Assembly (NCBI RefSeq): GCF_000785555.1
Contig: NZ_CP009129.1
Coordinates: 434,001 to 498,000, forward strand
DNA: 64,000 nucleotides
DNA from: Planococcus sp. PAMC 21323
GTDB lineage: Bacteria > Bacillota > Bacilli > Bacillales_A > Planococcaceae
Reading direction: 5' to 3'
Shown: piece after piece, positions 3,117 to 53,237 of the stretch
How positions within the stretch are numbered: the stretch's first letter is position 1
How the letters are laid out: each line of letters opens with the position of its first letter
Position numbers and translations under genes: made by a program
The notes under the pieces: model-generated
Told to the model about the DNA's origin: nothing
The model's input: the letters and a program-made list of their open reading frames with translations, nothing else
Databases searched by the model: none

Positions 3117-5064
<1,948 letters not shown>

Positions 5065-5211: not shown

Positions 5212-6531
5212 TTACCGCTTAACAGACTGCCGCTTTTCCAGATAAGGCAACTCCAAATTGTCACGCAACGTCTTTCCTTCATATTCGTTCCGGAAAATTC
5301 CGCGTGCTTGCAGAATTGGTACCACTTGGTCGACAAACGCTTCGAGTTCACTTGGCAAATTGGCAATGATCATAAAGCCATCTGCTGCGTGTTGTTCGTA
5401 CCACAATTCGATCAAATTAGCGACGTATTCAGGTGTGCCTATAAAAGGTGTGCGCGGTGTCGCTTCACGTAAAGCCACTTGGCGCAAGCTTAAGTTTTCC
5501 TCGCGTGCTTCTTTTTTAATACGGTCGGTATCGCTTTGGAAACTGTTTTTGCCGATGGTTCCGAGTTCTGGAAACGGTTCGTCGAGTGGGTATTGAGAAA
5601 AATCATGGTGTTCAAATAGACGTCCTAAAAAAGCGAGAGCTTGTTCGGTCGTTACTAAACTGGCCAGCTCTTGGTATTTTCGTTCGGCATCTTCTTCCGT
5701 ATCACCGATAATCGGGCTGATGCCTTGTAAGACCAATATGTCTTCAGAGTGACGACCGCTCAAACGGGCTTGTTCTTTAACATTTTTACAATACTGCGTG
5801 GCTTCATCTATATTCGGCATAATGGCAAAGACGGCATCTGCTTGTTGTGCAGAAAAAGCAATGCCGTCTTTAGAAGAACCGGCTTGGAAAATTACGGGCT
5901 GTCCTTGTGGTGAGCGACCAATATTCAACGGCCCTTGCACAGAAAAGAATTCGCCTTGATGGTTTAATGGATGCAACTTGGTTGGATCAAAAAACTGCCC
6001 AGACGCTTTATCACGAACAAAGGCATCATCTTCCCACGAATTCCATAAGCCTTTCATGACGTGAACAAATTCTGCAGCCATTCGGTAGCGTTCCGCGTGA
6101 CTGGGGTGATCGTCGAGTTGTTTGCTAAAATTCAATGCGGTTTTTTCCAGTCCTGAAGTAACCGCGTTCCATCCAGCGCGTCCGCCACTCAACATATCTA
6201 ATGAAGCAAACTGGCGTGCTGCTGAAAACGGTTCACTATAGGTTGTAGATAACGTACTAACGAGTCCGATGTTTGACGTAATCGCTGCCAAGGCAGAAAG
6301 GATCGTTAACGGTTCAAAGCGATTTAAGTAATGCGGATTTGATTTTTCATTGATGTATAAAGCATCTGCAATAAATACAAAATCAAATTTGCCGCGTTCT
6401 GAAGTTTGCGCTTGTTGTTTGTAAAATTCAAAACTGACACTGGCATCCGCTGGCATTGCCGGGTGGCGCCAATCTGAAATCTTTTCGCCGACTCCATGAA
6501 TCATGGTTCCAAGTTTTAGTTGTTTTCTCAC
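5212..6531 (-). CDS. LLM-class FMN-dependent monooxygenase, NtaA/SnaA/DszA family
   Basis: The 439-residue product belongs to the flavin-dependent, luciferase-like monooxygenases of the nitrilotriacetate/dibenzothiophene type, which use FMNH2 supplied by a partner reductase to oxidise small sulfur- or nitrogen-containing compounds. Recognisable segments are [10 protein letters not shown] (about 48-57), [41 protein letters not shown] (spread over about 106-127) and [25 protein letters not shown]. No flavin reductase or transporter is adjacent, so the substrate is unknown; S-alkyl cysteine or sulfonate use would be typical in Firmicutes. The GTG at 6531 is chosen because AAAGGA lies 7-8 bases upstream. 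Confidence 0.85.
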
Positions 6532-6725: not shown

Positions 6726-7160
6726 TTGAAAGAACAATCGTATGAAAAACATGTACGTTACCCAAGGTTACAGCTTTTTTTCTGGGTCCCGTTAAGCTTT
6801 GTATTGCTCATAACAACAGCAAGCTATGGTATTTATCAATTTATGAAAAATGGATTTTCAATGCAATTATTATTGATATTTGCAATTATTATCCTCGCAA
6901 TCATTCCAGGAATGCTCGCAAGAATTTATGCGCTCACTTTACAAGATCGTTTAATTTGTACGGAAGAACAATTGCGCTACTTTATGCTGACAGGAAATCG
7001 CTTGGATTCACGTTTAACAAAATCACAACTAATCGCCTTGCGTTTTGCACCTGATGCGGAAGTAGTTGGATTAGCTGAACGTGCAGTAATTGAAGAGTTA
7101 TCAGCAGACGACATTAAAAAGTCGATTAATATGTGGCGTGCCGATCACCAACGCGTTTAA
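6726..7160 (+). CDS. Uncharacterised two-helix membrane protein
   Basis: I do not recognise the family. The 144-residue product has a short polar N-terminus, two hydrophobic helices (about 16-36 and 47-67) separated by only a few residues, then a soluble C-terminal domain of about 75 residues with alternating charged and hydrophobic stretches. The C-terminal domain would face the cytoplasm by the positive-inside rule. The TTG at 6726 is preferred because AAGGAG (6712-6717) is 8 bases upstream, while the earlier in-frame GTG at 6717 overlaps that site. It is a single-gene unit ending in a strong terminator. A PH-like membrane-anchored domain is possible but unproven. Confidence 0.7.
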   Translation: MKEQSYEKHVRYPRLQLFFWVPLSFVLLITTASYGIYQFMKNGFSMQLLLIFAIIILAIIPGMLARIYALTLQDRLICTEEQLRYFMLTGNRLDSRLTKSQLIALRFAPDAEVVGLAERAVIEELSADDIKKSINMWRADHQRV

Positions 7161-7214: not shown

Positions 7215-8630
7215 TTAATTTTTCTTCGTAGCTGGTTTTGGGCTTTTAACAGCAAATGATAACAAGAACCCAAAGGCTGCAACAATGCCGGCTACAACAA
7301 AGGCCATGTTCACTCCGTGAATCGCACCAGCAACTGAATTGTCACTAGCAGCGGTAACGGTAACTGTTACAAGAACGGCGGTTCCAATAGCTCCTGAAAT
7401 TTGGCGGAACGTATTGTTCATGGCCGTACCATGAGGAATTAAATGATTCGGCAATTGATTCAACCCAAGCGTAGTGGATGGCATCATCACCATAGCAATT
7501 CCCACCATTCGAATAGCGTTCAACACGGATAGATAAAGAAACGTTGTATCTTCGGATAAGTTTGCAAAGAAAAAAGTCGTGATGGTTAAAATGGCAAACC
7601 CAATGCGCAATAGCCATTTGGCACCGTATTTATCGAAAAGAGCACCCGTTACAGGATTCATAATTCCCATAAGGATCGCACCTGGTAACAACATCAACCC
7701 CGAATGCAACGCGTCAAACCCAAGTAAGTTTTGCATAAACAGTGGCAAAATAACGGTTGTCGCAATCATCGAAGCAAAGACGATCATGCCAAGTGAGGTT
7801 GCGATGGAGAAGATGCGGTATTTAAAGACACGGAATTCGAGAATGGGTTGTTTTAGTTTTAATTGTCTCGTGATAAACCAGTAAAGCGCAATAGCACCAA
7901 CGACAAGCGAAATGATTACGTTCGGGCTGAGCCAGCCCACGTTCCCAGCGATACTAAAGCCGTAGAGAATTCCACCAAACCCGAAAGTCGAAAGGACAAT
8001 TGATAAATAATCCATTTTGGGGTTCGTTTGCTCAGTAACGTTTTTTAGAACGAAATAAGCAGAAATGATAATGATGATCGCGATCGGTAAGACAACATAA
8101 AAAACACTTCGCCACGGATAGTGATCAACTAAGTAACCTGACAAACTAGGTCCTATTGCAGGTGCAAAGGCAATAATCAAGCCAAACATACCCATTGCTT
8201 TTCCTCGTTGTGAAACGGGGAAAATTAAAAAAAGAACGGTCTGCAAGAGCGGCATCATAATTCCAGCGCCGGCCCCTTGTAACACGCGTCCGCCTAATAA
8301 AAAGGTGAAGTTAGGAGAGACAGCAGCGAGTAAGGTTCCTGCTGCAAACAAACTCATAGCGGTTAAAAACAAACTACGCGTCGTAAACTTACCGATTAAA
8401 AAGGCGGTAATGGGAATCATAATCCCGTTAACTAGCATAAAAATAGACTGCAGCCATTGGACTGTACTTTCGCTAATTTGAAGATCGTTCATAATCGGCG
8501 GAAGGGCTGTAGCCAAAAGAGTTTGATTTAAAATAGTGATAAAAGCACCTGATAGCAAAACAGCTAAAAGAGGAATATGCTTTTTCAAATCAAACGGCTG
8601 TGTATTATCAAGAGTTTGTGAACTGACCAT
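7215..8630 (-). CDS. MFS drug-efflux type transporter, DHA2 (14-TMS) family
   Basis: A 471-residue membrane protein of the major facilitator superfamily, DHA2/EmrB-QacA branch, which exports toxic or signalling compounds using the proton gradient. Hydrophobic segments run almost end to end, with a roughly 25-residue polar N-terminus. Family motifs include LNQTLLATALPPIMNDL (motif D1-like, 35-51), GKFTTRSLF (motif A), GGRVLQGAGAGIMMPL (motif B/C, about 112-127) and GPSLSGYLVDHYPWRSVF (motif C). The ATG at 8630 follows AAAGGAG by 13 bases. No periplasmic adaptor is nearby. A Fur-like box lies 55 bp upstream, raising the possibility of iron-controlled export, for example of a siderophore; the substrate cannot be told. 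Confidence 0.88.
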   Translation of the reverse strand: MVSSQTLDNTQPFDLKKHIPLLAVLLSGAFITILNQTLLATALPPIMNDLQISESTVQWLQSIFMLVNGIMIPITAFLIGKFTTRSLFLTAMSLFAAGTLLAAVSPNFTFLLGGRVLQGAGAGIMMPLLQTVLFLIFPVSQRGKAMGMFGLIIAFAPAIGPSLSGYLVDHYPWRSVFYVVLPIAIIIIISAYFVLKNVTEQTNPKMDYLSIVLSTFGFGGILYGFSIAGNVGWLSPNVIISLVVGAIALYWFITRQLKLKQPILEFRVFKYRIFSIATSLGMIVFASMIATTVILPLFMQNLLGFDALHSGLMLLPGAILMGIMNPVTGALFDKYGAKWLLRIGFAILTITTFFFANLSEDTTFLYLSVLNAIRMVGIAMVMMPSTTLGLNQLPNHLIPHGTAMNNTFRQISGAIGTAVLVTVTVTAASDNSVAGAIHGVNMAFVVAGIVAAFGFLLSFAVKSPKPATKKN

Positions 8631-23934: not shown

Positions 23935-24026
23935 GGACAGTATTTCTCGGATTTGGACAGTATTCGACTCAATTCCGACAGTATTCAAGTGGAATCGGAC
24001 AGTATTTCATCCATTCCCGACAGTAT
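23935..24026. repeat. Array A: five copies of a GACAGTAT motif at 20-21 bp spacing
   Basis: GACAGTAT begins at 23936, 23956, 23977, 23998 and 24019 (steps 20, 21, 21, 21). Each motif is preceded by G or C; the sequence between motifs is not conserved except for a tendency to ATTC/ATTT just before the next motif. The array lies directly past the terminator of the minus-strand oxidoreductase gene. No significant ORF is evident in it. See findings for comparison with the other arrays. Confidence 0.85.
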
Positions 24027-32344: not shown

Positions 32345-32409
32345 AAGGTAAAATCTAGCTGTTCAAACTGCAAATACCTCGAGTTGGTCGAGGTATTTGT
32401 AGTTTTTTT
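32343..32409 (+). terminator. Element B 5' module with terminator
   Basis: The stem at 32365-32382/32388-32405 (18 bp, one G-T pair) with loop GTTGG is followed by seven T and ends the murQ-murP-mupG transcript. The preceding block GAAAGGTAAAATCT and TTCAAACTGCAA recurs almost identically at 37847-37876 before array C, so this terminator belongs to a repeated element. Confidence 0.9.
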
Positions 32410-32444: not shown

Positions 32445-32540
32445 ATCTGCACGTTTGGCGAGGAATACGCACGGTTGAGGGGTACTTATGCACGCTCGAG
32501 TAAAAATGCGCACGCTACTCGAGAGCTTACGCACGTTCTT
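32445..32540. repeat. Array B: five GCACG motifs at 20-21 bp spacing
   Basis: GCACG begins at 32449, 32469, 32490, 32510 and 32531 (steps 20, 21, 20, 21), usually within TACGCACG or TATGCACG. Between them are CTCGAG-like or GAGG-rich segments. It follows the 5' module at 32343-32409; no 3' module like those of elements C and D is present, so this copy seems truncated on the right. Confidence 0.85.
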
Positions 32541-36559: not shown

Positions 36560-37813
36560 ATGAAAAAGTGGATAGCAATATTGACAACGATTTTACTGGT
36601 TCTAACTTCGTTATCTATCGCTTTTGCGGATCATGATAATGGCAATGGAAAATCGAAAGATAATCGGAAAGACCATAAAGATATCAAACTGGGAGTGGAA
36701 GTATTACTAGATGAACAAAAAGAATTGATAAGCGGAAAGAAGGTCGGGTTAATTACTAATCCGACAGGTGTTGATCAAGAATTAACTAGCATTGTTGATT
36801 TATTGAACAACGATCCAGATATTGAGTTAGCTGCCTTATACGGACCTGAGCACGGTGTAAGAGGAGATGCACAGGCGGGGCAATATGTGGATTATTATAT
36901 TGATGAAGTAACAGGGTTACCTGTTTATAGCCTATATGGAAAAACGCGGAAGCCATCGCCTGAAATGCTTGAAGGCATAGAAGTGTTAATCTTTGATATT
37001 CAAGATGTCGGCGCACGATTCTACACATACATTTACACTATGGCTTTAGCGATGGAAGCCGCTCAAGAACAGGGAATTCCATTTATCGTATTGGATCGCC
37101 CAAATCCGCTTGGTGGCACAAAAGTAGAAGGACCGGTCTTGGACCCAGCATATGCTTCGTTTGTTGGACAATACGCGATCCCACTTCGTCACGGAATGAC
37201 CGTCGGCGAATTGGCAATATTTTTTAATGAAGAAATCGGGATTGATGCAGACTTAACAGTTGTAGAAATGGAAGGGTGGCAAAGACAGTCCTACTATGAT
37301 GAAACTGGTCTGGAGTTTGTGCCGCCTTCACCCAATATGCCAACACTCGACACTGCTTTAGTATATCCGGGAACGGCGTTGATCGAAGGGACGAATGCCT
37401 CAGAAGGACGTGGTACCACAAAGCCTTTTGAATACATCGGGGCACCATTTATTAATAGTACAGAACTTGCAAAAGAACTGAACGCGTTGCAACTACCAGG
37501 AGTTAGTTTCCGAGCAACGTCGTTTACGCCGGCATTCTCTAAACATGTTGGTAAGTTATCGCATGGCGTTCAAGTTCATGTGACGGACCGAGAAGCATAT
37601 CAACCGGTGGAAACAGGACTGCACATAGTGAAAACGATTTACGATCTGTATCCAGGGCAACTGCAGTTAAGCTCTTTCTTCAATAACTTAATAGGTAACG
37701 AGTGGATCAGTAGTGGTATAAAAGATGGAATGACCATAGAGGAAATGAAAGAACGCTGGCAGGGAGAGTTGAAAGAGTTTAAAAAAGTTAGAAAAGACTA
37801 CTTATTGTATTAG
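36560..37813 (+). CDS. namZ: Exo-beta-N-acetylmuramidase NamZ (DUF1343, GH171)
   Basis: NamZ of B. subtilis (YbbC) releases terminal MurNAc from glycan chains, supplying MurP. The 417-residue product has a signal peptide (1-23), a Lys/Asp-rich linker (24-45), then the DUF1343 domain. Conserved segments are TNPTGVD, YGPEHGVRGDAQAG (about 94-107, likely active-site Glu/His), FDIQDVGARFYTYI and LDRPNPLGG, with SEGRGTTKPFE in the C-terminal part. GGGGGAGAGG precedes the ATG. It is the last gene of amiE-nagZ-namZ, ending just before repeat element C. Together the three secreted enzymes turn muropeptides into free GlcNAc, MurNAc and peptide. Confidence 0.93.
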   Translation: MKKWIAILTTILLVLTSLSIAFADHDNGNGKSKDNRKDHKDIKLGVEVLLDEQKELISGKKVGLITNPTGVDQELTSIVDLLNNDPDIELAALYGPEHGVRGDAQAGQYVDYYIDEVTGLPVYSLYGKTRKPSPEMLEGIEVLIFDIQDVGARFYTYIYTMALAMEAAQEQGIPFIVLDRPNPLGGTKVEGPVLDPAYASFVGQYAIPLRHGMTVGELAIFFNEEIGIDADLTVVEMEGWQRQSYYDETGLEFVPPSPNMPTLDTALVYPGTALIEGTNASEGRGTTKPFEYIGAPFINSTELAKELNALQLPGVSFRATSFTPAFSKHVGKLSHGVQVHVTDREAYQPVETGLHIVKTIYDLYPGQLQLSSFFNNLIGNEWISSGIKDGMTIEEMKERWQGELKEFKKVRKDYLLY

Positions 37814-37846: not shown

Positions 37847-37912
37847 GAAAGGTAAAATCTGGCTATTCAAACTGCAACTCTCTCGAGTCGGTCGAGAGAG
37901 TTGCAGTTTTTT
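37847..37912 (+). terminator. Element C 5' module with terminator of amiE-nagZ-namZ
   Basis: The block GAAAGGTAAAATCT and TTCAAACTGCAA is shared with element B. The hairpin at 37869-37886/37892-37909 (18 bp around GTCGG) is followed by T6 and ends the operon. Its stem sequence differs from B (CTCTCTCGA instead of ATACCTCGA) with matching changes in both arms, so the pairing, not the sequence, is conserved. Confidence 0.9.
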
Positions 37913-37948
37913 GGTTGGCAAATTTTACTTGGTCTGGCGGGAGAGGGG

Positions 37949-38140
37949 TATGCGAGGTTGGAGTGGAATACGCGTGGTTACGCGGTGCTTATGCGCGTTC
38001 CCGAGGAGATACGCACGGTGCTCGAGAGCTTATGCGCGCTCCAACAAAAATACGCGCGGTCAGCGTGAAATACGCACGGTGCTCGTGAACTTATGCACGC
38101 TCCAGAGGAAATACGCACGCTCCCAAAAAAATACGCTTGC
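37949..38140. repeat. Array C: eleven TAYGC motifs at 20-21 bp (one at half spacing)
   Basis: TATGC/TACGC begins at 37949, 37969, 37979, 37990, 38010, 38031, 38051, 38071, 38092, 38112 and 38132. Steps are 20, 10, 11, 20, 21, 20, 20, 21, 20, 20, so every motif stays in helical phase. Units typically read TACGCACGGTGC or TATGCACGCTCC. Because the period is not a multiple of three, no reading frame repeats; long ORFs through it are artefacts. Confidence 0.9.
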
Positions 38141-38163
38141 TCAATAAAACCAACCCCCAATTG

Positions 38164-38197
38164 CACAAAAAAAGCACGGCAGAAAAACCTGCCGTGC
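38164..38197 (-). terminator. Element C 3' module: leftward-facing terminator
   Basis: GCACAAAAAAAGCACGGCAG begins the module; GCACGGCAG (38174-38182) pairs with CTGCCGTGC (38189-38197). On the minus strand the stem is followed by seven T, so it stops transcription entering the array from the right. The same module, inverted, ends array D. Confidence 0.8.
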
Positions 38198-38200
38198 ACT

Positions 38201-38230
38201 CGAAATGGATTTTCCAAAAAATCCATTTCG
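38201..38230. other. Hairpin of unknown role next to element C
   Basis: CGAAATGGATTTT and AAAATCCATTTCG pair perfectly around a very short loop. No T-run follows on the plus strand. It may be part of the element, a protein-binding site or an mRNA 3' structure of a leftward transcript. Confidence 0.5.
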
Positions 38231-43323: not shown

Positions 43324-44058
43324 ATGTTAAAAAGTTATTTCAAGCAAGCACAAGAACATCTAGAGCTTGTTGAAAAAAATGAAACACCAGCAATGCTATT
43401 CGCTGCCAAAAAAGTATCAGATGCCATCCAATCGGGTGGCATCATTCAATTATTTGGTTGCGGACACTCGCATATTTTAACCGAAGAAGTGTTTTACCGT
43501 GCGGGTGGATTGGTACCAATCAAGCCGATTTTCGTAGAACCGTTAATGTTGCATGAAGGTGCCGTCCAATCATCCGAGCTAGAGCGGAAAAACGATTATG
43601 CAGCGAGTTTCTTGAAAGATCAAGATTTTCAAAAAGACGATGTGGTTTTTGTCATCTCAACATCTGGTCGTAACCCTGTGCCTGTAGACGTAGCTTTAGC
43701 AGCGAGTGAAAAAGGCGCATTTGTTATTGGCATTACCTCACTTTCGTATTCTGTGAGTCAGTCCTCGCGACATAGCACGGGCAAGCATCTATTTAATTCA
43801 GTAGATTTAGTAATCGACAATCACTCTGTCCCTGGTGATGCTGTATTATCCTACGAGGGTGTTGACATACCATTTGGTCCGACTTCAACAGTAGTCGGTG
43901 TCACAATATTAAATGCAATTTTCGCAGAAGCTATTAAAGAAATGGCAGATGCCGGATTTGAGCCACCGATATTCTTGAGTGGCAATATCGACGGGTCAGA
44001 CGAACATAATCACAAGTTGATCGATAAGTACAGCGAGCGAATTCCGTTGTTGTCTTAA
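43324..44058 (+). CDS. UPF0309 family SIS-domain protein of the nag operon
   Basis: The 244-residue product is of the UPF0309 family, first listed as the protein in the 3' region of Lysinibacillus nagA. A single SIS domain shows IQLFGCGHSHILTEEVFYRAGG (split, about 40-61), FVISTSGRNPVPVDVAL (about 112-128) and GPTSTVVGVTILNAIFAE. SIS domains isomerise or sense phosphosugars; candidates are an amino-sugar-phosphate isomerase, but the reaction is not established to my knowledge. It is the last gene of the operon. Its terminator is the 3' module of repeat element D. Confidence 0.88.
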   Translation: MLKSYFKQAQEHLELVEKNETPAMLFAAKKVSDAIQSGGIIQLFGCGHSHILTEEVFYRAGGLVPIKPIFVEPLMLHEGAVQSSELERKNDYAASFLKDQDFQKDDVVFVISTSGRNPVPVDVALAASEKGAFVIGITSLSYSVSQSSRHSTGKHLFNSVDLVIDNHSVPGDAVLSYEGVDIPFGPTSTVVGVTILNAIFAEAIKEMADAGFEPPIFLSGNIDGSDEHNHKLIDKYSERIPLLS

Positions 44059-44070
44059 GGTTTAGGTTTA

Positions 44071-44104
44071 GCGCACGGCAGATTTTTCTGCCGTGCTTTT
44101 TTGT
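44071..44104 (+). terminator. Terminator of the nag operon = element D 3' module
   Basis: GCACGGCAGA (44073-44082) pairs with TCTGCCGTGC (44087-44096), then T6. The hairpin sequence is the same as the module at 38174-38197 in inverted orientation, so an operon terminator has been supplied by, or incorporated into, a repeat element. Confidence 0.92.
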
Positions 44105-44140: not shown

Positions 44141-44300
44141 GAGCGTGCATAAGTTTTGGTGAACGAGCATATTTCTGCTGGAGCGTGCATAAGTTTCGGT
44201 GAACGAGCATATTTCTGCTGGAGCGTGCATAAGTTTCGGTGAGCGAGCATATTCCCGCTGGACCGCGCATAAATCCAGCCAACCACGCACAACCTCCGCA
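44141..44300. repeat. Array D: eight units of exactly 20 bp
   Basis: Blocks of 20 bp start at 44141, 44161, 44181 and so on to 44281. Odd blocks read like GAGCGTGCATAAGTTTCGGT, even blocks like GAACGAGCATATTTCTGCTG; the first five are nearly identical pairwise and the last three decay. On the minus strand the motif is TTATGCACGCTCC, as in array C, so D is the same family inverted. Frames shift with each unit, so the ORFs spanning it are not genes. Confidence 0.92.
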
Positions 44301-44303
44301 CAC

Positions 44304-44336
44304 AAAAAAATCCCCTGCAAACATGCAGGGGATTTC
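44304..44336 (-). terminator. Terminator of the DUF1541 lipoprotein gene
   Basis: AAATCCCCTGCA and TGCAGGGGATTT form a 12-bp perfect stem around AACA, with T7 on the minus strand. It closes array D from its right side. Confidence 0.93.
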
Positions 44337-44341
44337 GTCAG

Positions 44342-44932
44342 TTATTCAGCAGATAATTCGCTTTCAGTTACCCATTTATGATTAGTTACTTCGTCACCGC
44401 TCTCAGTGTCCACAAAGTCGACCATATAAACCGTAGTTTCTTCCGCAGTGTCGATTGTTGCAGTGGCTCCGTCCATGCCTTCCATATGATCTGCGGTGAT
44501 TACCGCTTCGTCTCCAGCTGAAAGTGGCATGTCGCCAGCATCTTCTAACTCTTCATGAATGACCCATTTATGATTTTCTACAGGTTCGCCACCAGTAGTT
44601 GGTGTAAAGCTCAATGCGTAAACCGTCGTGTCGTAAGCGCCAACGATCGTCGCTTCAGCACCATCCATTCCTGGCATATGATCAGCTTTAATAATCGCTT
44701 GACTGCCAACTTCAAATGTTGGGCTATCCGCTTCTGCCAAGCCTTCAGGCACTTCACCAGAACTAGAATGATCCATACCGCCATGACCCGCATCGTCACC
44801 TTTTTCTTCATTCATTTCAACATCAGTTTCCGGGTCTACGGGGTTCATATCTTCTTCTGTATCACTGCAAGCCGCTAACGTAATTGCCGTTAAAGTCGAC
44901 ATTGTAAGTAGTAAAAAATTCTTTTTAATCAT
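44342..44932 (-). CDS. DUF1541 lipoprotein (YdhK/CopL-like), probable copper binding
   Basis: The 196-residue product has a lipoprotein signal (lipobox LAAC, lipidated Cys22), an acidic, His/Met-containing linker (GHGGMDHSSS near 48-57), and two DUF1541 repeats of about 62 residues (about 72-130 and 135-194). Each repeat contains A-D-H-M-x-G-M-D-G-A and ends with NHKWV. In S. aureus the DUF1541 lipoprotein CopL binds copper at the cell surface. The His/Met content and the Cys-rich copper-storage gene 5 kb away support a copper role, though this is inference. GAGGG lies nine bases before the ATG. It is divergent from the next lipoprotein gene. Confidence 0.88.
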   Translation of the reverse strand: MIKKNFLLLTMSTLTAITLAACSDTEEDMNPVDPETDVEMNEEKGDDAGHGGMDHSSSGEVPEGLAEADSPTFEVGSQAIIKADHMPGMDGAEATIVGAYDTTVYALSFTPTTGGEPVENHKWVIHEELEDAGDMPLSAGDEAVITADHMEGMDGATATIDTAEETTVYMVDFVDTESGDEVTNHKWVTESELSAE

Positions 44933-53051: not shown

Positions 53052-53237
53052 TTGTGGAAAGATGTTGTGAAATTTTCTATGCGTGTAAAGAGTGGAAAAG
53101 TTCATGTAAAGAGTTCAAAAATTCATGTAAGAGAGCTAAAATTTCGTGTAAAAGCCGCAAAAGTTGCTGTAAAAATCTCAACCCATGAAAATGGTCGAAA
53201 ACCTCATTTAACATCAGCAAACCTACTCAACTCATAA
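53052..53237 (+). repeat. Array E: TGTAA motif every 21 bp, with an open frame through it
   Basis: TGTAA starts at 53084, 53105, 53126, 53147 and 53168, exactly 21 bp apart, mostly inside TTCATGTAAAGAG. Because 21 is a multiple of three, the frame from a TTG at 53052 (just after a G-rich stretch that could serve as a ribosome site) stays open for 61 codons and encodes a seven-residue repeat of the type x-x-V-K-x-x-K. I list it as a repeat rather than a gene because the same 20-21-bp architecture occurs in non-coding arrays A-D, and because the peptide is only alternating Lys/Val. A real small basic repeat protein is not excluded. Confidence 0.75.

Follow-up and report, generated by a model that had tools for sequence, protein, structure and literature searches.

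We find that array C, a run of TAYGC repeats, represents one of several direct-repeat array families lying between genes on the 3.2-Mb chromosome of Planococcus sp. PAMC 21323, and we give about an even chance to the reading that the short cores of these families are recognised by cooperative DNA-binding proteins with a structural role in the chromosome. The window (the whole stretch of DNA analysed, 64,000 nucleotides) holds the following arrays.

37949..38139, plus strand: array C, ten TAYGC(NCG) units in register at 20/21 bp, with one more TAYGC out of step at 37979
32446..32535, plus strand: array B, five units resembling TAYGCACG, some carrying a single mismatch, with steps of 20, 21, 20 and 21
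44144..44271, minus strand: array D, seven units at 20 bp
23936..24026, plus strand: second-family array, core GGACAGTATT, steps 20, 21, 21 and 21
53084..53174, plus strand: third-family array, core TGTAAARAG, 21-bp steps

Array C lies between two genes, and its TAYGC motifs start on the plus strand at 37949, 37969, 37979, 37990, 38010, 38031, 38051, 38071, 38092, 38112 and 38132 (steps of 20, 10, 11, 20, 21, 20, 20, 21, 20 and 20), which bears out the eleven motifs at 20 or 21 bp with one 10 and 11 pair of the original prediction, ten of them being in register. The conserved word is longer than TAYGC, namely TAYGCRCG with a weaker T two bases further on, and because the remainder of this word is missing at 37979 (TACGCGGT), that motif is probably a chance occurrence. 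Ten is the longest chain of TAYGC at 20/21-bp steps in the window, against longest chains of 1 (264 cases), 2 (235) and 3 (1) in 500 Markov-1 shuffles. Furthermore, a periodicity scan of the kind suggested with the original prediction, here a motif-blind k-mer scan of the window over periods of 9 to 60, returned four periodic regions, every one at 20-21 bp or double that, and none in 10 shuffles. C, D and the two arrays of the other families account for these four, and the shorter array B makes a fifth.

With respect to spacing and direction, we observe across ten genomes, at the loci of 63 array calls grouped in 47 clusters, that exact TAYGCNCG motifs lie 19 bp (8), 20 bp (249) or 21 bp (51) apart, or two or three such steps apart, with no other distance between exact pairs within 8-70 bp. 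Steps of 19-22 bp make up 449 of the 460 in these calls, the mean array step is 20.1 bp, and 445 exact motifs lie on the array strand with 1 on the opposite strand. These counts support the proposed phasing on one helix face, and a single direction as well. Every family pairs a short conserved core with free spacers, and its step covers two DNA helix turns. The array is also not built as a coding repeat, as had been argued from 20-bp steps keeping no frame: 389/460 steps are not multiples of 3, and open frames traverse 44 of 60 arrays (≥100 bp) on the motif strand and 22 on the opposite one, with no consistent strand, so that a coding repeat was rejected. No kept ORF of ≥100 aa was present in 32 of the 47 clusters, and frames of one strand or the other (9 plus, 6 minus) overlap the remaining 15. 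The motif strand follows fork movement in 8/10, 5/7 and 8/10 arrays of three genomes starting at dnaA; since these genomes have sites in common and the G025 arrays, among those listed, look mixed in direction along replication, we draw no conclusion on replication direction.

Core and spacer change at very different rates. Among tandem copies in 17 arrays, differences were found at 12/656 comparisons for core positions 1, 3, 6 and 7, at 24/328 for positions 0 and 4, and at 339/1556 for spacer positions 8-17, a comparison that favours the core, as units were chosen at ≤1 core mismatch. An array of six GCAAACAA units at orthologous sites in G000 and G044 has 0/48 core changes and 34/65 spacer changes (0.52, with 0.57 for non-corresponding spacers), from which the spacers appear to be near saturation while core and register are kept; two other pairings of GCAAACAA arrays gave 4/48 and 3/48 core changes. 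Such a pattern suggests that the words may be kept because a protein binds them.

Families with differing cores and a similar step include TAYGCRCG, GGACAGTATT, TGTAAARAG, GCAAACAA, GAGGTGC and ACCCGGGTGTT. Across 380 kb of the same genome taken at random, 5/9 periodic regions step by 20-21 or 41 bp, one of them inside an open frame; the stretch L330, picked for a known palindrome, is excluded from this count. In the relative G044, the figure is 4/5 at 20-21 bp, leaving out L350, L353 and L354, which were picked for the same reason. By comparison, 640 kb from five other Bacilli families yielded 0/18 periodic regions at 19-22 bp and, at 42, one coding repeat. Among loci from other phyla, preselected by a 20-21 bp pattern, 6/37 of the remaining periodic regions lie at 19-22 bp, and this counts against the protein-binding reading.

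Several arrays have relatives or neighbours of their own. The GGACAGTATT array of the window has relatives at L337:19527-19617 and L349:1565-1635, and the TGTAAARAG array adjoins an inverted repeat, with related TTTACATGAA arrays at L338, L319 and L320. About 20 GAGGTGC units at 21 bp form an array inside an open frame (L337:11846-12233). In L330, three GCAAACAA arrays (5824-5936, 7036-7145 and 7252-7361) each follow immediately after a terminator-like hairpin, two of the hairpin-array units being in tandem. The palindrome GCTTTTCGCNNGCGAAAAGC occupies six sites in the same genome, none in G001, and adjoins arrays with different cores (L317, L318, L319, L320). At L074 and L090, arrays run on at an unchanged step, the core there being a variant (TTGCGTGCGATTA or TTGCGGGCGATTA).

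The exact pattern TAYGCNCG-N12-TAYGCNCG is found in 26/46 genus members, up to 89 times per genome, and a reversed-pattern control mostly gave 0-3 matches, with the exception of G006 (24). The doublet is missing in the other 20/46, and the TAYGC family is therefore dispensable. In a sample of the bacterial family, 30/200 genomes match the doublet pattern, and pairs of GCGCATA at 19-22 bp occur in 54/261 genomes of the order and 45/398 of the class; outside the family, only G549 is prominent, with 275 such pairs divided 7 versus 268 between strands (L156). A scan of named genomes gave at least 119 stretches, and among the 80 matches listed 35 fall in Bacillales. Most of the 15 Bacillales loci inspected have TATGCGC at 19-22 bp with changing spacers (e.g., Rossellomorea, Neobacillus, Bhargavaea, Sporosarcina), and many other-phyla matches resemble 21-nt coding repeats. 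TATGCGC arrays are thus found across genera, namely Planococcus, Sporosarcina, Bhargavaea, Rossellomorea, Neobacillus and others. In addition, arrays recur between recognisably matching genes in several species, for example beside a gene of 309-353 aa flanked by genes of 403 and 433-434 aa. Upstream of nagE, six array-free species carry one or two copies (mostly a pair) of another repeat, GTCCCTGTGC..ACAATT (seen at L110, L114, L115 and L116).

Hairpins lie beside arrays B, C and D as follows.

37847..37912, plus strand: 5' flank of C, GAAAGGTAAAATCT, then an 18-bp hairpin (37869-37909) and a T run, terminator-like, behind the plus-strand gene 36560-37813
38174..38197, minus strand: 3' flank of C, GCACGGCAG hairpin with an A run to its left, terminator-like toward transcripts from the right
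38201..38230, no strand: second perfect inverted repeat with 13-bp arms, directly past the 3' flank of C
32365..32405, plus strand: hairpin at B that is related to the 5' one of C
44073..44096, plus strand: GCACGGCAG hairpin at D with a T run, terminator-like for the plus-strand gene 43324-44058, identical to the hairpin at C
44307..44336, minus strand: hairpin flanking D on its opposite side, terminator-like for the minus-strand gene 44342-44932

The original prediction described C as a composite of a 5' hairpin module, an array and an inward-facing 3' hairpin module. Both hairpins are present with their T and A stretches, and the arms of the 5' one (37869-37886 and 37892-37909, 18 nt) are complementary throughout and lead into the T stretch, yet B and D each carry just one of the two: B and C have only the 5' module in common, and D and C only the 3' module. 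Within the genome, the 5' module is found at B and C only (E ≤ 0.001), and the GCACGG..CCGTGC (GCACGGCAG) hairpin at three sites, C, D and an array at 1262 kb, so the remaining arrays of the genome are without it; it is also present in G006 and G008. Under a strict rule that undercounts terminator hairpins, a terminator-like hairpin lies upstream in 11/29 clusters whose upstream gene points at the array versus 0/17 others, and downstream, facing in, in 16/27 versus 2/19 when split by the direction of the neighbouring gene. The same strict rule finds such hairpins on both sides in 6/46 clusters, with 2/92 and 1/92 in control stretches. The flanking hairpins thus act mostly like terminators of adjoining genes, and because they track these genes, the shielding of arrays is mostly supplied by gene ends. 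The recurring unit is the array rather than a fixed composite, and the claim of one element family with two shielding end modules is weakened accordingly. Upstream of nagE, however, array and GCACGG 3' hairpin occur jointly in 5/30 species and neither occurs in 25/30, a co-occurrence that favours a composite unit. Two more observations go in the same direction: there is no leftward gene at C to need the facing 3' hairpin, and hairpin and array are duplicated jointly as tandem copies at other sites.

With respect to known systems, REP/BIME elements are extragenic and often lie at gene ends, and REP units are palindromic; the units here, in contrast, are non-palindromic and all in one direction, as the strand counts above illustrate. 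Nor is there a link to the Y1 transposase associated with REP/BIME, which is encoded in 15/26 genomes with arrays versus 14/20 without and is not found in the array-bearing genome studied here. ParR/parC centromeres and iterons are normally found once in each replicon, next to the par or rep genes, iterons lying in a replication origin. The arrays resemble these centromeres and plasmid iterons in their phased direct repeats of about 20 bp and differ in being chromosomal and many, with no partner found. A closer likeness is to the constant-length, variable-sequence tandem repeats of 20-21 nt in Bacillus (Subirana and Messeguer 2021, PMC8161180), a class into which array C appears to fit. In the accessible text of that article, these repeats likewise have a 20-21 nt step covering two helix turns, are mostly non-coding and form several same-length families of unrelated sequence per genome, each with a short signal (TCGCGG in B. 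weihaiensis), all of which is seen here. Their length criterion asks for at least 4 repeats with at least 60% of equal length within 1 nt, and 8/10 steps of C are 20 or 21. Unlike the species-specific sequences remarked on in that text, the TATGCGC core is shared by several genera of Bacillales. The same accessible text mentions neither Planococcus, Sporosarcina, 'intergenic', 'terminator' nor 'orientation', and we saw no core-versus-spacer test in it; the present analysis adds the contrast between kept cores and saturated spacers, TATGCGC across Bacillales genera, ordinary RNA folding and the lack of a Y1 link. STAR elements of Staphylococcus, as far as described in the available portion of PMC3532100, are similar as intergenic direct repeats with a fixed core, locus-specific spacers, variable copy number and an unexplained function. 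They are unlike the arrays in their 14-bp core, T(G/A/T)TGTTG(G/T)GGCCC(C/A) versus TAYGCRCG, in spacers of ≥40 bp versus steps of 19-21 bp, and in sites that differ between species, while the arrays recur at matching sites. Apart from these two articles and from PMC9426499 and PMC8625621, a literature search brought up nothing on arrays in Planococcus.

A neutral minisatellite, with units growing and shrinking by slippage and a fixed step inherited from the first copies, would account for the widely varying copy number at the nagE site (exact motif counts of 7, 11, 18, 21 and 27 among five species) and for superunits of 40-41, 80, 101 and 242-297 bp, which mark recent duplication. Slippage treats core and spacer equally, but changes are about tenfold rarer in the core, and the orthologous GCAAACAA arrays hold core and register with spacers near saturation; we regard this explanation as unlikely. 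Quite unlikely is the mobile or locally spreading non-coding element that had been proposed, in which array and hairpin move jointly. Array and 3' hairpin common to C and D, the nagE site, the tandem hairpin-array units and the palindrome GCTTTTCGCNNGCGAAAAGC beside arrays of different cores all point to such an element, but arrays recur at matching gene pairs across species, most have other flanks, common ends are lacking, the palindrome-bearing relative G044 is without a TAYGC doublet, and the Y1 transposase is unlinked to the arrays.

It is very unlikely that the arrays are iteron- or centromere-like, a reading in which plasmid initiator or partition proteins would bind them and the chromosome would retain them as decoys or remnants. 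Iterons and ParR sites are indeed typified by phased direct repeats about 20 bp long (20-bp repeats of pSK41, in the part of PMC9426499 available), and the 3.36-kb contig C2 of the same assembly (L363, 3364 bp) has an iteron-like AAATAAC array at 3122-3195 with steps of 22, 22 and 23. Against this, blastn of the arrays tried versus plasmids and phages, a search that is weak on degenerate arrays, gave chance-like matches only, and a plasmid or phage origin was rejected on that basis. A pattern scan turned up 27 stretches in viral contigs, and the matches listed among them resemble 20-21 nt repeats of different types. The ParM profile PF06406 matched 0/46 genus members, with control genomes also without a match. 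Least probable among these alternatives is that the array acts as RNA, e.g., a sponge or small RNA: 52-nt satellites of Bacillus coagulans are transcribed, according to the accessible text of PMC8625621, and open frames and transcription across the array are possible, but folding of C is unremarkable on both strands (z of -0.24 and 0.02) and C sits behind a terminator-like hairpin. A known RNA family was rejected as well, since 7 matches in an Rfam search at a loose threshold all fell under their gathering scores.

That core and spacer contrast, that the units share one direction and that RNA folding is ordinary all speak for a protein on DNA. Each core would then be the site of a sequence-specific DNA-binding protein, copies of which would line up side by side on one DNA face and in one direction, neighbouring copies helping each other to bind, and the resulting protein-DNA patch, lying between genes, would have a role in chromosome structure rather than in the regulation of a single neighbour. 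The original suggestion of cooperative binding on one DNA face is plausible. On the other side, a genome with several unrelated cores would require as many proteins, which counts against the protein reading, as do the 20/46 genus members without the TAYGC doublet and the 20.1-bp mean step; only in overwound DNA would this step not drift relative to 10.5 bp per turn. The analysis neither found nor nominated a binding protein. Since 7/47 clusters lie between divergent genes, arrays may also regulate locally. A further extension, which we think has a low probability, is that Planococcus and its kin have a set of DNA-binding proteins, each with its own polar two-turn arrays, forming parallel address systems whose cores are under purifying selection while spacers turn over, and which might serve nucleoid organisation or decoy the initiator or partition proteins that incoming plasmids bring.

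Repeats of 20-21 nt have been known since 2021 or earlier, their function left unexplained by the authors, and the accessible text of PMC8161180 holds two open proposals, RNA or a nucleoid protein, the latter polymerising on DNA. The DNA-binding reading favoured here supplies a defined bait, an array versus an array with scrambled cores; if a protein were found, a set of non-coding Bacillales arrays would gain a function and genomes a new class of chromosome landmark. As a last observation, at L063, L070, L077 and L089 the array is directly upstream of a long conserved leader (TTGGCTTACCTATTTCGATAGGCAGAGCGGG...) that looks structured and is followed by a gene of 432-434 aa.
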